DNA from: Phyllobacterium sp. YR531
GTDB lineage: Bacteria; Pseudomonadota; Alphaproteobacteria; Rhizobiales; Rhizobiaceae
DNA: 64,000 nucleotides
Direction of reading: 5' to 3'
NCBI RefSeq assembly: GCF_000282595.1
Contig: NZ_AKIZ01000038.1
Location: 186,001 to 250,000, forward strand
The translations under genes and the position numbers were made by a program. Every line of letters begins with the position of its first letter. Within the stretch, counting starts at the first letter, position 1. Below the pieces are notes generated by a model. That model saw nothing but the letters and a program-made list of their open reading frames with translations, was not told where the DNA came from and did no database searches. Positions 2,555 through 45,069 of this stretch are shown here, piece by piece.

Positions 2555-3488
2555 TGCATACGGCGCTGGCTTCTTTTATATCCCTGGCACAGAGACATGC
2601 CTGAAGATTGGTGGTTACGTTCGTACTCAAGCTGTTGGCGGTGACAACGTTTATAGCGGCGACAAGTTTGAAACCTATCTCTGGCAATCTCGCGCTACGG
2701 TTCGTTTTGATGCTCGTTCGGAAACCGAACTCGGTACATTGCGCTCATTCATTGAGACGCGTTTTGACTACACTGTCGGCCGCAAAGACACGACCGTTGA
2801 CAATGTTCTGCAAGAAAACGCCGTTGATGGTGGCCAAACTACGACTCTTACTCATGCTTATATTGAACTGGGTGGCTTTCGCGTCGGTTTGACAGATTCT
2901 CAGTTTGATACATGGACCGGTTCTGCCGGTAACGTAATCGCCGACGATGTGATTTCGTATGCCGGTGGCCGTACAAACCAGATCAGCTACACCTTTGCCG
3001 GTGGCAATGGTTTCTCTGCCTTCGTAGGCGCAGAACAGGGTGATAGCGACCATATCATTGAGGACTATCTACCGCACGTTGTTGCAGGTGCGAAGTTTGA
3101 ACAGGCTTGGGGCGCGATTTCTGGTGTTGTTGGCTACGACTCAGTTGTTGAAGAGTTTGCTGGCAAAGTTCGTTTGGATGTGAAGTTCAACGATACTATT
3201 TCGGGATTTGTACTGGGCGGCTACAAGTCGGAAGATAGCTACTACGGTACGTGGAATGGTGACTACGCAATTTGGGCCGGACTGTCAGCGAAGGTATCAG
3301 AAAAGGCAGAAATCAACGGTCAAGTTGCTTACGAAGATGACGGCACTATCGCTGCTGCTCTGAATGTAAACTATGAACTGGTTCCTGGCTTTGTTGTCAC
3401 CCCCGAAATTGAATATACTAACTTCGGTGGCGAACGCGGTGACGACGACGCATTCGCTGGCGTCATTCGCTTCCAGCGCAATTTCTAA
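2433..3488 (+). CDS. omp2: Omp2-type general porin, copy 2
   Basis: A 351-residue paralogue of the porin at 498-1580, with the same signal peptide, the same YGAGFFYIPGTETCLK motif and the same terminal RFQRNF. The extracellular loop regions differ in length and sequence, for example around residues 60-75 and 115-140. Its codon use leans to T-ending codons (GTT, GGT, GAT), unlike copy 1, which hints at weaker expression or an older unselected divergence. In Brucella one of the two Omp2 genes is strongly expressed and the other weakly or not at all, and this bias would fit such a split. A strong terminator follows. Confidence 0.95.
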   Translation: MNIKSLLLGSAAALVAVSGARAADAVVVAEPEPVEYVRVCDAYGAGFFYIPGTETCLKIGGYVRTQAVGGDNVYSGDKFETYLWQSRATVRFDARSETELGTLRSFIETRFDYTVGRKDTTVDNVLQENAVDGGQTTTLTHAYIELGGFRVGLTDSQFDTWTGSAGNVIADDVISYAGGRTNQISYTFAGGNGFSAFVGAEQGDSDHIIEDYLPHVVAGAKFEQAWGAISGVVGYDSVVEEFAGKVRLDVKFNDTISGFVLGGYKSEDSYYGTWNGDYAIWAGLSAKVSEKAEINGQVAYEDDGTIAAALNVNYELVPGFVVTPEIEYTNFGGERGDDDAFAGVIRFQRNF

Positions 3489-31083: not shown

Positions 31084-31755
31084 TTAGAATACGGCAGCAA
31101 TAATCGCTGGCCAGTTGTTGATAATCGCAATGGAACCGACCGCAATTGCAAGCATACTGGCAAGCTTTCCAGTCGTTGGCAGACTATCGACACGTCCGCG
31201 AAGTTCTCCCCACGCTTCGGCAGATGGCAGGGCGTCCACTTTGGCGGCAAGTTGACCGAACGCTATCGCGGATGGGAGCGCGTCAACTTTCGCCGCAAGC
31301 TCGCCGAACGCCCTTGCGGAGGGCAGCGCATCAACTTTCGCAACAAGTTCACCAAAAGCCATTCCAGTTGGAAGAGTGTCCACCTTGGCTTTTAGATAGG
31401 CGACATCGCCTTTCAGACTGACAACATCGCCTTTCAGACTTGAAACATCACCCTTCAAACCGACGACATCGCCTTTTAAACCTGAAACGTCGCCTTTTAA
31501 GCCTGAAACATCGCTCTTCAAGCTTGAAACATCCCCGCTCAAACCTGAAACATTACCCTTCAGACTTATGATGCCCCCTTTCAAATCCGAAACATCGTTC
31601 CTTAAACCCGCAACATCCCGAACGACGGTGTCTAGTTTGACATCCATCTTCTCAAATGATTTTTCCAGCAATGCGACGCGTGTTTCCATACTGTCGACTG
31701 TGCCACTGCCATCACCCGACTTCAAGCGACCTAGACGTGTAACAGGTTGAGGCAT
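31084..31755 (-). CDS. Repetitive coiled-coil protein with C-terminal membrane anchor
   Basis: A 223-residue protein in three parts. Residues 23-53 form a helical, coiled-coil-like head. Residues 54-123 are about ten tandem heptads of the type DVSGLKG, with L at a fixed place, giving a regular parallel coiled coil. Residues 124-187 are four 16-residue units of the type KVDALPSARAFGELAA. The end (LASMLAIAVGSIAIINNWPA) is a hydrophobic anchor. The start ATG overlaps the upstream stop as TAATG, so translation is coupled to the gene at 31755-32231. The plan suggests a tethered rod or spacer. No named homologue is recognised. Confidence 0.85.
   Translation of the reverse strand: MPQPVTRLGRLKSGDGSGTVDSMETRVALLEKSFEKMDVKLDTVVRDVAGLRNDVSDLKGGIISLKGNVSGLSGDVSSLKSDVSGLKGDVSGLKGDVVGLKGDVSSLKGDVVSLKGDVAYLKAKVDTLPTGMAFGELVAKVDALPSARAFGELAAKVDALPSAIAFGQLAAKVDALPSAEAWGELRGRVDSLPTTGKLASMLAIAVGSIAIINNWPAIIAAVF
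31195..31596 (-). repeat. In-gene tandem repeats (21-bp and 48-bp units)
   Basis: At 31387-31596 about ten 21-bp units encode the LKGDVS-type heptads. At 31195-31386 four 48-bp units encode the VDALPS-type repeats. Such blocks can change copy number by slippage without a frame shift. Confidence 0.85.
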
Positions 31756-32231: not shown

Positions 32232-32367
32232 TAAAATCAACTTTCTAAAATAAGTATTCGGTTCGCAATGCCGCAACCCTATATGCATCCCCCCCCTCCT
32301 CCAATTGGACAAAGGTCTAACATGCATGCCTCTTGAATTAATTGAACGTTCGTTTTATTATTCTGCG

Positions 32368-41972: not shown

Positions 41973-43193
41973 TCACCGCATTTTGCGCCGCAAGGACATC
42001 GCGCCAACCACCAGCATTGCCGCGGTTGAAACAGCCGCTCCCATGAAAAATGTAGTACTGGAGCCATGTGCATCCCAAACCCATCCGGCGGCCACGTTGC
42101 CCACCAATACGACCACACCCGTTATCAAATTGAAGACTCCAAAAGCGGTACCCTTGAGATTCTTGGGTGCCGTGTCTGCGATCAGGGTTGCGAGCAGCCC
42201 TTGGGAAAGCCCCATGTGAAGCCCCCACAAAACGATCCCCAATATAAAGATGCCGATGGATGAAGCAGCAGCCAGAACGATATAGGCAGTGGCAAGAACT
42301 GCAATACTGCCGACGAGCAAGCCTGATCGCCCGATTTTGTCCGACAATCGTCCAACCGGGTAGGCTGTGAGACCATAGACAGCGTGCATGATCACCATTG
42401 TTATGGGTATCCATGCTGGCGTAAACCCCGCTTCCTGTGACTTGAGAAGCAGAAATGCCTCGCTAAAACGTGCCAACGTCAACAGCGAAGCGAGGCCGAT
42501 CGCCACCCAAACGGCTCGGTTCAATAATATTATGTCAGCAAGACGGGGAATAGCTGGCGTACTTTGGGCAGACTGCGACTTGGGCTCTCTGATTCCCACC
42601 ACAAGCAGAACCATGGCCATTCCAGCCGGAATTATTGCGAGCCAGTAAACGGCAAGGATATTCCCATCAAAAGCAAACATGAGAGCGATCGCTATGAGTG
42701 GACCAATAAACCCGCCAACCGTATCGAGAGATTTTCGAAGACCAAAGCTTGCCCCGCGCAGCTCCGGTGGCGTCACATCGGCAATCAGAGCATCGCGCGG
42801 AGTACCACGGATACCTTTGCCTACACGGTCAATGCTCTTTGCGGCAACGATCCAGCCTACAGACACGGCAAGTGGAAAAATCAGCTTGGAAAGTGCGCCC
42901 AGCCCATATCCCAGAACCGCAAGCGGCTTCCTGCGGCCTGTCCAATCCGAAACAACACCAGATACAAGCTTGGTGGCTGTAGCTATGGCAACGGAGAGCC
43001 CTTCGATGAACCCCACGAGAACGGCAGATGCGCCAAGGCTACTGACCAGATAAAACGGCAGTAGCGTCTGTATCATTTCTGATGACACATCCATCAGCAG
43101 ACTGACTATCCCGAGTATCCATACGGTTCGAGGAATGGAGGTGCCCCGCACCGCGAGGGTAGATTCCGAATCCGGCAAATTGGCTGTTGTCAT
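41973..43193 (-). CDS. MFS transporter
   Basis: A 406-residue inner-membrane transporter with twelve predicted helices. The MFS motif A is in SGVVSDWTGRRKPL and again in PVGRLSDKIGRSG. The start TVWILGIVSLLMDVSSEMIQ is characteristic of a subgroup often found with stress or heavy-metal genes. The substrate is unknown. It lies 109 bp upstream of the LivJ-type gene on the same strand, so weak cotranscription is possible. Confidence 0.9.
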   Translation of the reverse strand: MTTANLPDSESTLAVRGTSIPRTVWILGIVSLLMDVSSEMIQTLLPFYLVSSLGASAVLVGFIEGLSVAIATATKLVSGVVSDWTGRRKPLAVLGYGLGALSKLIFPLAVSVGWIVAAKSIDRVGKGIRGTPRDALIADVTPPELRGASFGLRKSLDTVGGFIGPLIAIALMFAFDGNILAVYWLAIIPAGMAMVLLVVGIREPKSQSAQSTPAIPRLADIILLNRAVWVAIGLASLLTLARFSEAFLLLKSQEAGFTPAWIPITMVIMHAVYGLTAYPVGRLSDKIGRSGLLVGSIAVLATAYIVLAAASSIGIFILGIVLWGLHMGLSQGLLATLIADTAPKNLKGTAFGVFNLITGVVVLVGNVAAGWVWDAHGSSTTFFMGAAVSTAAMLVVGAMSLRRKMR

Positions 43194-43613
43194 AAATGCT
43201 TCTCGTCAGAATCCACTGAGCAAAGCCATAAAAGCAAGGCAGGATAGGGTCAACAGAGTAGAGGAACGCTCATCATTACAATACATCGATCCAGCTTCAG
43301 TGAAGAAACAGGCCAGCCTTAGACTAAGGTATAATTGTGCGCCAAAACCAACTCGAGTATAGATTGATTACTTTCAGAATGTTGCTGTTTTAAGTATCAA
43401 TTACAAAGATCGCTTTATTCTGCGAACGATATCTAAGAGACCAGAATGTTTACGCGCATCCTCCCAACGCGTGAATTTCAAGAGTTTCAGGGGTGGTGAG
43501 GCAGCGATTATTTCAAATGTCGCTTGCTTTAATGGTCTCAGCTGGATGGATTTCTTCCGGTTGAACGGAGCAGAACCTAGGGTTCGGATCAGGTTTTCTG
43601 ATTACGGGCAAAG
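43194..43613. other. Gene-free stretch with possible small RNA
   Basis: No convincing protein gene. Short hairpins at about 43573-43586 and ATCAG-CTGAT at 43589-43603 lead into the strong terminator at 43614. This arrangement fits the 3' part of a small RNA or of an attenuated leader, but the promoter could not be located with confidence. Confidence 0.4.
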
Positions 43614-43653
43614 AAAGGCAGCCAAGAAGTATTCTTCGTGGCTGCCTTTTTAT
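43614..43653 (+). terminator. Strong orphan Rho-independent terminator
   Basis: AAAGGCAGCC pairs with GGCTGCCTTT, with AAGAA-GTA-TTCTT nested inside, followed by TTATTTA. No protein gene precedes it on the plus strand. Confidence 0.85.
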
Positions 43654-43667
43654 TTACATGGGCATCA

Positions 43668-44080
43668 TCGAGCGTCTGCATTCACGGCACTGGGTTATTT
43701 GCACTCCAGTATCGGCGTATTCGCTTCCCGGAATCAAATATTTGCATTCCTCGGGTCAGGCGTCAGAATTCTTCGTATCAGCGATTGCATTTTTTGCATC
43801 GGGCATTTGCATTTTCCGTATCAACGATTGCGCTCTTCGCGTCAGCTATTTGCATTCCTGGTGCATCAGCGTTCCCGGCATAAAATATTTGCATACGCTC
43901 CAGATATTGCATTCCTTGTCTCATATAATTACTGGCCTCGCGTCGGGCATTAGCATCCCGGCATCAGATTTTTGCCTCCGCGCCAAATGTTGCATTCCTC
44001 GCTTCATATAATTGCATTGCTCACGCCGGGCATCAGCGTTCCTGGCATCAGATATTTGCATGCGTATCATCAGATCGCCC
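43668..44080. repeat. Degenerate 21-22-bp tandem array (~18 units)
   Basis: The sequence can be cut into about 18 successive units of 17-22 bp, most ending in ATTTGCATTC and many beginning with CCGGCATCAG. Examples are CCGGAATCAAATATTTGCAT, TTGCATCGGGCATTTGCATT and CTGGCATCAGATATTTGCAT. Units vary at about a third of positions. There are no spacers between them. All three plus-strand frames are long here because the unit is poor in stop codons, so protein coding is unlikely. Confidence 0.75.
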
Positions 44081-44190
44081 ATGAGTACGAGCGTAACCCG
44101 TAGGGCCAGACTAATGCGGTGGAAGCTTGATTGCCTTAATTGAAGGCCGGAACGCTCGGAGGCGTTCCAGTCAATTACCAGAACAGCGTA

Positions 44191-44892
44191 TCAGAGCGCT
44201 CTCTGGCCGAAGAGTATCTTCTGCGCTTCCTTATCATCCGCGAGGTTACGGCGTTCTTCCTTGCCAACTGCTACACCGCGTTCCACTGCCGGTCGTGCGC
44301 GAATGGATTCAAACCAGCGCTTCAGGTTCGGGAAATCGTTGAGGTCCTGCCCCTGATTGGCATGGGAAATTGTCCAGCCATAGGAAGCCATGTCGGCGAT
44401 GGAATACTCGCCCGCCAGATAGTCCCTGCCCTCAAGCCGGCGGTTCATCACGCCATACAGACGATTTACCTCATTGGTGTAGCGGTTGATGCCGTACTCG
44501 ATCTTTTCCGGCGCATAATTGCGGAAATGATGCGCCTGCCCTGCCATGGGTCCGAGCCCGCCAACCTGCCAGAAAAGCCATTCCTCGACGGCCACCCGAG
44601 TCCTTTCATCCTGCGGATAAAACTTACCAAACTTGCGGCCGAGATATTGTAAGATCGCACCGGATTCAAAAATTGAAATCGGTTCTCCATCCGGTCCCTC
44701 CGGATCAATAATGGCAGGCATGCGATTATTGGGCGCAATCTTCAGGAATGAGGGGGCAAATTGATCGCCCTTGCCGATATTGATCAGTTTCACACCATAA
44801 GGAACGCCGAGCTCTTCGAGCATGATGGAAATTTTCCATCCATTCGGTGTCGGCCAGTAATAAAGCTCGATCGGCTTGGTCTGGGTCGTCAT
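44191..44892 (-). CDS. Glutathione S-transferase (YghU/nu class-like)
   Basis: A 233-residue enzyme. Residues 1-85 are the thioredoxin-like domain (KPIELYYWPTPNGWKISIML, NNRMPAIIDPEG, SIFESGAILQYL), with glutathione-binding Asn/Glu-Ser in place. The rest is the helical domain, including a TISHANQGQDL segment. The TPNGWKIS motif is that of the disulfide-bond reductase YghU/YfcG group. GGAGA precedes the start at 44892, and the previously possible longer start has no binding site. Confidence 0.92.
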   Translation of the reverse strand: MTTQTKPIELYYWPTPNGWKISIMLEELGVPYGVKLINIGKGDQFAPSFLKIAPNNRMPAIIDPEGPDGEPISIFESGAILQYLGRKFGKFYPQDERTRVAVEEWLFWQVGGLGPMAGQAHHFRNYAPEKIEYGINRYTNEVNRLYGVMNRRLEGRDYLAGEYSIADMASYGWTISHANQGQDLNDFPNLKRWFESIRARPAVERGVAVGKEERRNLADDKEAQKILFGQRAL

Positions 44893-45069
44893 ATCCGTCT
44901 CCATGAGTGGGTCATCTGGATTTTTAAAGATAGGCACCGGTTGCGGGTTCACAAGGGCTCACGCAGCGCTTGTTGAACGCTTGATGAACAATGCTATCAG
45001 CGTCCGTTCAGCCGGGATGGGGCAAAGTCGTGACCAGATAATATCAAAGCCGCTTTTCGGGGAACAATA

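Follow-up and report, generated by a model that had tools for sequence, protein, structure and literature searches.

Unrelated degenerate tandem arrays at the 3' border of a conserved structured RNA in Phyllobacterium

The locus and its structured RNA

The window, that is the whole stretch of 64,000 nucleotides of Phyllobacterium DNA that was analysed, contains a degenerate tandem array (43663-44083, not assigned to a strand) which begins directly 3' of the intrinsic terminator of a conserved structured non-coding RNA (ncRNA) gene located on the plus strand (43336-43655). An MFS transporter gene on the minus strand (41973-43193) is the left neighbour of the ncRNA, and the spacer that holds the array is bordered on the right by a glutathione S-transferase (GST)-like gene (44191-44952, minus strand) convergent with the ncRNA. 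The genes around the array are those for the MFS transporter, a periplasmic binding protein, GST and AMP nucleosidase, and no gene for replication or partition (Rep/Par) was found among these neighbours. An earlier reading of the sequence alone had correctly placed the array just after a strong terminator. It had also described the surroundings as a gene-free kilobase and looked to the Brucellaceae for relatives, neither of which holds, as the ncRNA gene occupies 43336-43655 and the genome is that of a Phyllobacterium.

The MFS transporter gene separates the ncRNA from the binding-protein gene, and in the sister species (G006) the binding-protein gene adjoins the ncRNA directly. In several species the ncRNA is found beside a chrB-like gene (L042 4037-4121; L126 3407-4321), so that its neighbours are GST genes in some species and chromate-resistance genes in others. 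The chrB-a RNA motif (RF03078) was observed near the ncRNA in P. brassicacearum.

The ncRNA is about 320 nt long, scores 204.8 bits with our covariance model R2 and folds with a z-score of -4.3. It is closed by a long-range stem (UUCUGC/GCAGAA) and carries a nearly invariant CCUCCC loop. In the alignment of 12 homologues, 21 double-change cells were found compared to 7.4 in shuffled alignments, with none of 500 shuffles reaching 21 and with much lower values in slid controls, and this covariation supports a common structure. The CCUCCC loop may pair with a downstream GGGAGG to form a pseudoknot, which we regard as possible only because this helix shows no compensatory change. The covariance model found the ncRNA at full length in 15 of the 20 Phyllobacterium genomes; G014 adds a divergent copy, which brings the total to 16 of 20. 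Beyond the genus, only weak and short matches, none of them convincing, were found in the 248 genomes of the family and 377 genomes of the order that were sampled, where the searches ran with stricter filters. No Rfam family matched at its gathering score, and a search of the literature on Phyllobacterium sRNAs and on Rhizobiales minisatellites returned nothing relevant. As a structured RNA that seems undescribed, the ncRNA is found across the genus and is apparently restricted to Phyllobacterium, where harmless plant-associated strains are available for its study.

An anti-Shine-Dalgarno loop has been described in other sRNAs of the Rhizobiales (PMC3927594), and the ncRNA shares the CCUCCC stem-loop with the trans-acting sRNAs of this order, namely the SmelA075/SmelA099 family (PMC3927594) and AbcR1. 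In contrast to these, it has a single such loop in its roughly 320 nt, together with the closing stem and the possible pseudoknot, and it is apparently confined to one genus and has no Rfam match. The resemblance observed is one of a loop feature.

The ncRNA is preceded on the plus strand by an inverted repeat of the TTAGAC-N4-GTcTAA type (TTAGACTAAGGTATAA, 43319-43334), which reads TTAGAC-TAAG-GTATAA and overlaps a -10-like TATAAT, making it a putative promoter or operator of the ncRNA. At the other end, the terminator hairpin AAAGGCAGCCA...TGGCTGCCTTTTT (43616-43655, plus strand) is part of the ncRNA model, although a simple scan for consensus terminators did not list it; it also matches model R2 on the minus strand and may therefore stop transcription from both sides. 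For transcription of this predicted RNA, the signals seen are the promoter-like repeat and the terminator. The longer sequence TTAGACTAAGGTNTAATTG occurs exactly in the window and in 11 related records of our collection (Phyllobacterium or Rhizobiales). Exact copies were also observed in five Pseudoalteromonas records, in which the ncRNA model gave no convincing match, and a copy of the TTAGAC-N4-GTCTAA inverted repeat with one mismatch lies elsewhere in the window (32305-32320). A hairpin nearly identical to the terminator (AAAGGCAGCCAAGAA...TGGCTGCC) occurs elsewhere in this genome, in an unrelated location (contig C16, L006 1501-1540).

Units and periodicity of the array

The array consists of about 20 units arranged head-to-tail, mostly 21-22 bp in length with a range of 17-25 bp, which have a mean identity of 73% to the 22-bp consensus CATCAGATATTTGCATTCCTCG. 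These limits are slightly wider than the about 18 units of 17-22 bp between 43668 and 44080 that had first been noted; the array itself was confirmed. The autocorrelation at lag 22 was 0.44 against 0.26 expected from composition, with a maximum over all lags of 0.37 in 2000 shuffles. Wrap-around profile fitting gave 344 bits compared to at most 131 bits in 40 shuffles, and Tandem Repeats Finder (TRF), at a lenient setting, returned a period of 22 with 18.9 copies (43677-44075). The array stands far above shuffled sequence and is real. Being non-coding, with tandem units in the range of 10-100 bp that repeat above chance and with a period that is not a multiple of three, it belongs with the non-coding bacterial minisatellites.

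Partial higher-order periodicities of 43 bp and 83 bp were also found. At the standard setting TRF splits the array and reports the 83-bp higher-order repeat as a sub-block of 2.4 copies (43863-44061, no strand assigned), with a score of 242, where 200 dinucleotide shuffles reached no more than 47. This points to a later duplication of blocks of about four units that had already diverged. The columns of the units have decayed unequally (chi-square p 0.005), and the same was found for the array of a second species, G011 (p 7e-11). A shared duplication history can cause such inequality and so can constraint, which leaves room for some constraint on the units.

The array is single-copy in its own 5.0-Mb genome and no transposed copies of it were found there. 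Plasmid and phage collections yielded no similar DNA, leaving a phage or plasmid origin without a match, and among 397 genomes of the order only short marginal matches of about 20-43 bp were found outside its own genome. Neither strand of the array has RNA structure beyond chance (z 0.24 and 0.77).

Arrays at the same border in related species

Arrays follow the ncRNA terminator in three of the 16 ncRNA loci, two of which belong to sister species, so that only two independent events may be represented. In the sister species, the spacer beyond the terminator shows repeats of a 20-bp unit close to AGCCTTATCGGCTCGGCTGC, with a profile fit of 174-184 bits where the shuffles reached at most 117-118. 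G011, which is not a sister species, has an array of about 660 bp after the terminator with units of 26-28 bp, a 106-bp higher-order repeat and a lenient TRF score of 569. No array was found at the remaining 13 loci, several of which are stored on the opposite strand and were judged by the TRF scan and by reading of the re-oriented spacer; for G013 and G014 the absence rests also on the profile fit.

The units of the three arrays have no detectable similarity to each other, and homology of the arrays between species was accordingly set aside. The gene that follows the array is convergent and GST-like in the window and in the sister species, whereas in G011 it is co-directional and chrB-like, which indicates that the array follows the 3' end of the ncRNA and not the neighbouring gene. 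On the ncRNA strand all three arrays are low in A (16-20%), and C exceeds G in the window and in the sister species with the reverse in G011; a Rho-utilisation site common to all three arrays was rejected on this reversed composition.

The units show no relation to the ncRNA above shuffles, apart from a single borderline score across species, and neither repeats templated by the ncRNA nor pairing of the ncRNA with its own array gave a match above shuffles. The GGA-rich minus-strand units were also considered as a sponge for the CCUCCC loop, but by eye this motif is not apparent in the unit of the sister species.

Origin of the arrays and competing explanations

We favour, at a probability of roughly 60%, the explanation that the array is a non-coding minisatellite, and that the region 3' of the ncRNA is a mutational hot spot where such arrays recurrently form and decay. 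Repeated tandem duplication and decay are evident in the array itself. The duplications, by slippage or by unequal exchange, would have acted on local sequence just downstream of the ncRNA, and the array would now decay by substitution and small indels with no conservation of the unit sequence. Successive duplication plus decay predicts the strong periodicity, the 83-bp higher-order repeat and the 73% identity of the units, and the suggestion of a decaying satellite in the sequence-only reading fits the array. What recurs is the place and not the sequence, even between sister species; related species would have formed arrays of other units, or replaced them, at the same 3' border, making the 3' end of the ncRNA a hot spot for both the birth and the turnover of arrays. 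Either the strong terminator or the transcription of the ncRNA might promote duplication, for example through a hairpin, an R-loop or conflicts between replication and transcription, and the array would have no sequence-specific function.

Non-coding minisatellites in bacteria are uncommon and usually species-specific (Subirana and Messeguer 2019, PMC6749651). Like the intergenic minisatellites and VNTR loci described there, the array is head-to-tail, non-coding, degenerate and species-specific, with units of tens of bp and with higher-order duplication. It differs from them in that arrays of unrelated units recur at one ncRNA 3' border and were not found elsewhere in the genome portions sampled. 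The kind of minisatellite is known, and the unusual point is that unrelated arrays use a single ncRNA 3' border again and again. Compact bacterial genomes rarely hold such minisatellites, and this border offers a natural test site for what seeds them, in particular for whether the termination of transcription promotes tandem duplication.

The arrays might instead act through their repetitiveness or length, serving as a spacer, an insulator or an element related to transcription that separates the ncRNA from the gene beyond it. Such an element might, for instance, take up read-through or buffer convergent transcripts that collide. A sequence-independent function of this sort would suit the finding that arrays of differing units hold one position with respect to the ncRNA in three species, and likewise the A-poor composition of all three arrays. 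However, most ncRNA loci (13 of 16) do without an array, the neighbour and its orientation vary, the array lacks RNA structure, and the excess of C over G that Rho loading would want is reversed in G011. We consider this function improbable, although it survives better than the explanations that follow.

A closer coupling, in which the ncRNA and the array form one system and the ncRNA or its transcription drives or uses a downstream array of freely changing sequence, would also lead species to differ in their arrays at the same 3' border. We give this coupling only a small chance of being correct.

It is likewise distinctly unlikely that the array binds protein in the manner of iterons, centromere-like sites or targets of nucleoid proteins, as the sequence-only reading had proposed from the iteron-like unit length. 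The 21-22 bp spacing of the units and the unequal conservation of their columns would agree with protein binding, and plasmid iterons and partition centromeres are likewise direct repeats of about 20-22 bp without spacers. Unlike these, the array adjoins no Rep/Par gene, and neither the sister species (20 bp) nor G011 (26-28 bp) shares its unit sequence, its unit length or its helical phase, which argues against an iteron, a partition site or an IHF array. The nearest motif is that of IHF (WATCARNNNNTTR compared with CATCAGATATTTG), with one perfect site and two sites with one mismatch in 0.42 kb where about 0.6 sites with at most one mismatch would be expected. With three such sites in about 20 units, most units lack the motif, no site with at most one mismatch occurs in the array of the sister species, and the spacing of the units is smaller than the footprint of IHF, which covers about 30-35 bp. 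A location at the origin or terminus was rejected as well for G013, the relative in which this could be read: according to the skew and dnaA its origin lies at about 1.2 Mb, the skew switches in the opposite sense at about 2.6 Mb, and the ncRNA is at 1.98 Mb. A search with a dif-type pattern found nothing.

Very unlikely too is that the ncRNA and the arrays came to lie together by accident, with Phyllobacterium having such arrays in many of its spacers. A TRF scan of five genomes, covering about 2.06 Mb in all (arrays of at least 120 bp with a period of at least 12), found no non-coding arrays other than those after the ncRNA, and all others were located in ORFs. Among 546 ORF-poor segments of 250-280 bp, the arrays of the window genome and of G011 had the two highest profile scores (0.87 and 0.73 bits per base, with a 99th percentile of 0.49), followed by a perfect heptamer microsatellite (0.617) and a coding-looking segment (0.558); the array spacer of the sister species, scored separately, reached about 0.62-0.66 bits per base. 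Heptamer microsatellites do occur elsewhere, namely a perfect ACTCACC-type array of well over ten copies in G013 (L137, about 3230-3350) and, in P. endophyticum, a comparable array of 7-bp GTCTCCA units (L029 1622-1677), and each genome was scanned in part (about 0.4-0.46 Mb). As no other degenerate non-coding array was found in this sample, a density below about 1.5 arrays per Mb can be estimated from the TRF scan, which gives about 0.001 arrays expected beside the 15 further ncRNA ends. Co-location by chance is therefore unlikely in this partial scan, in which the array of the window was the starting point.

A decayed protein-repeat gene, for which the few plus-strand stops in the window array (4 against 16 expected) might speak, is already largely refuted and extremely improbable, because the scarcity of stops follows from the repetition of one stop-free unit, the 22-bp period is not divisible by three, the two ORFs that span the array have no Pfam match, and the arrays of the sister species and of G011 contain stops in all frames of both strands.

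Apart from the array, the window holds a minus-strand gene with coding repeats of 21/42 bp and 48 bp (31084-31755), whose product is a coiled-coil protein with an LPP match, and a similar repeat-containing ORF occurs in the sister species (L205 8195-8791).
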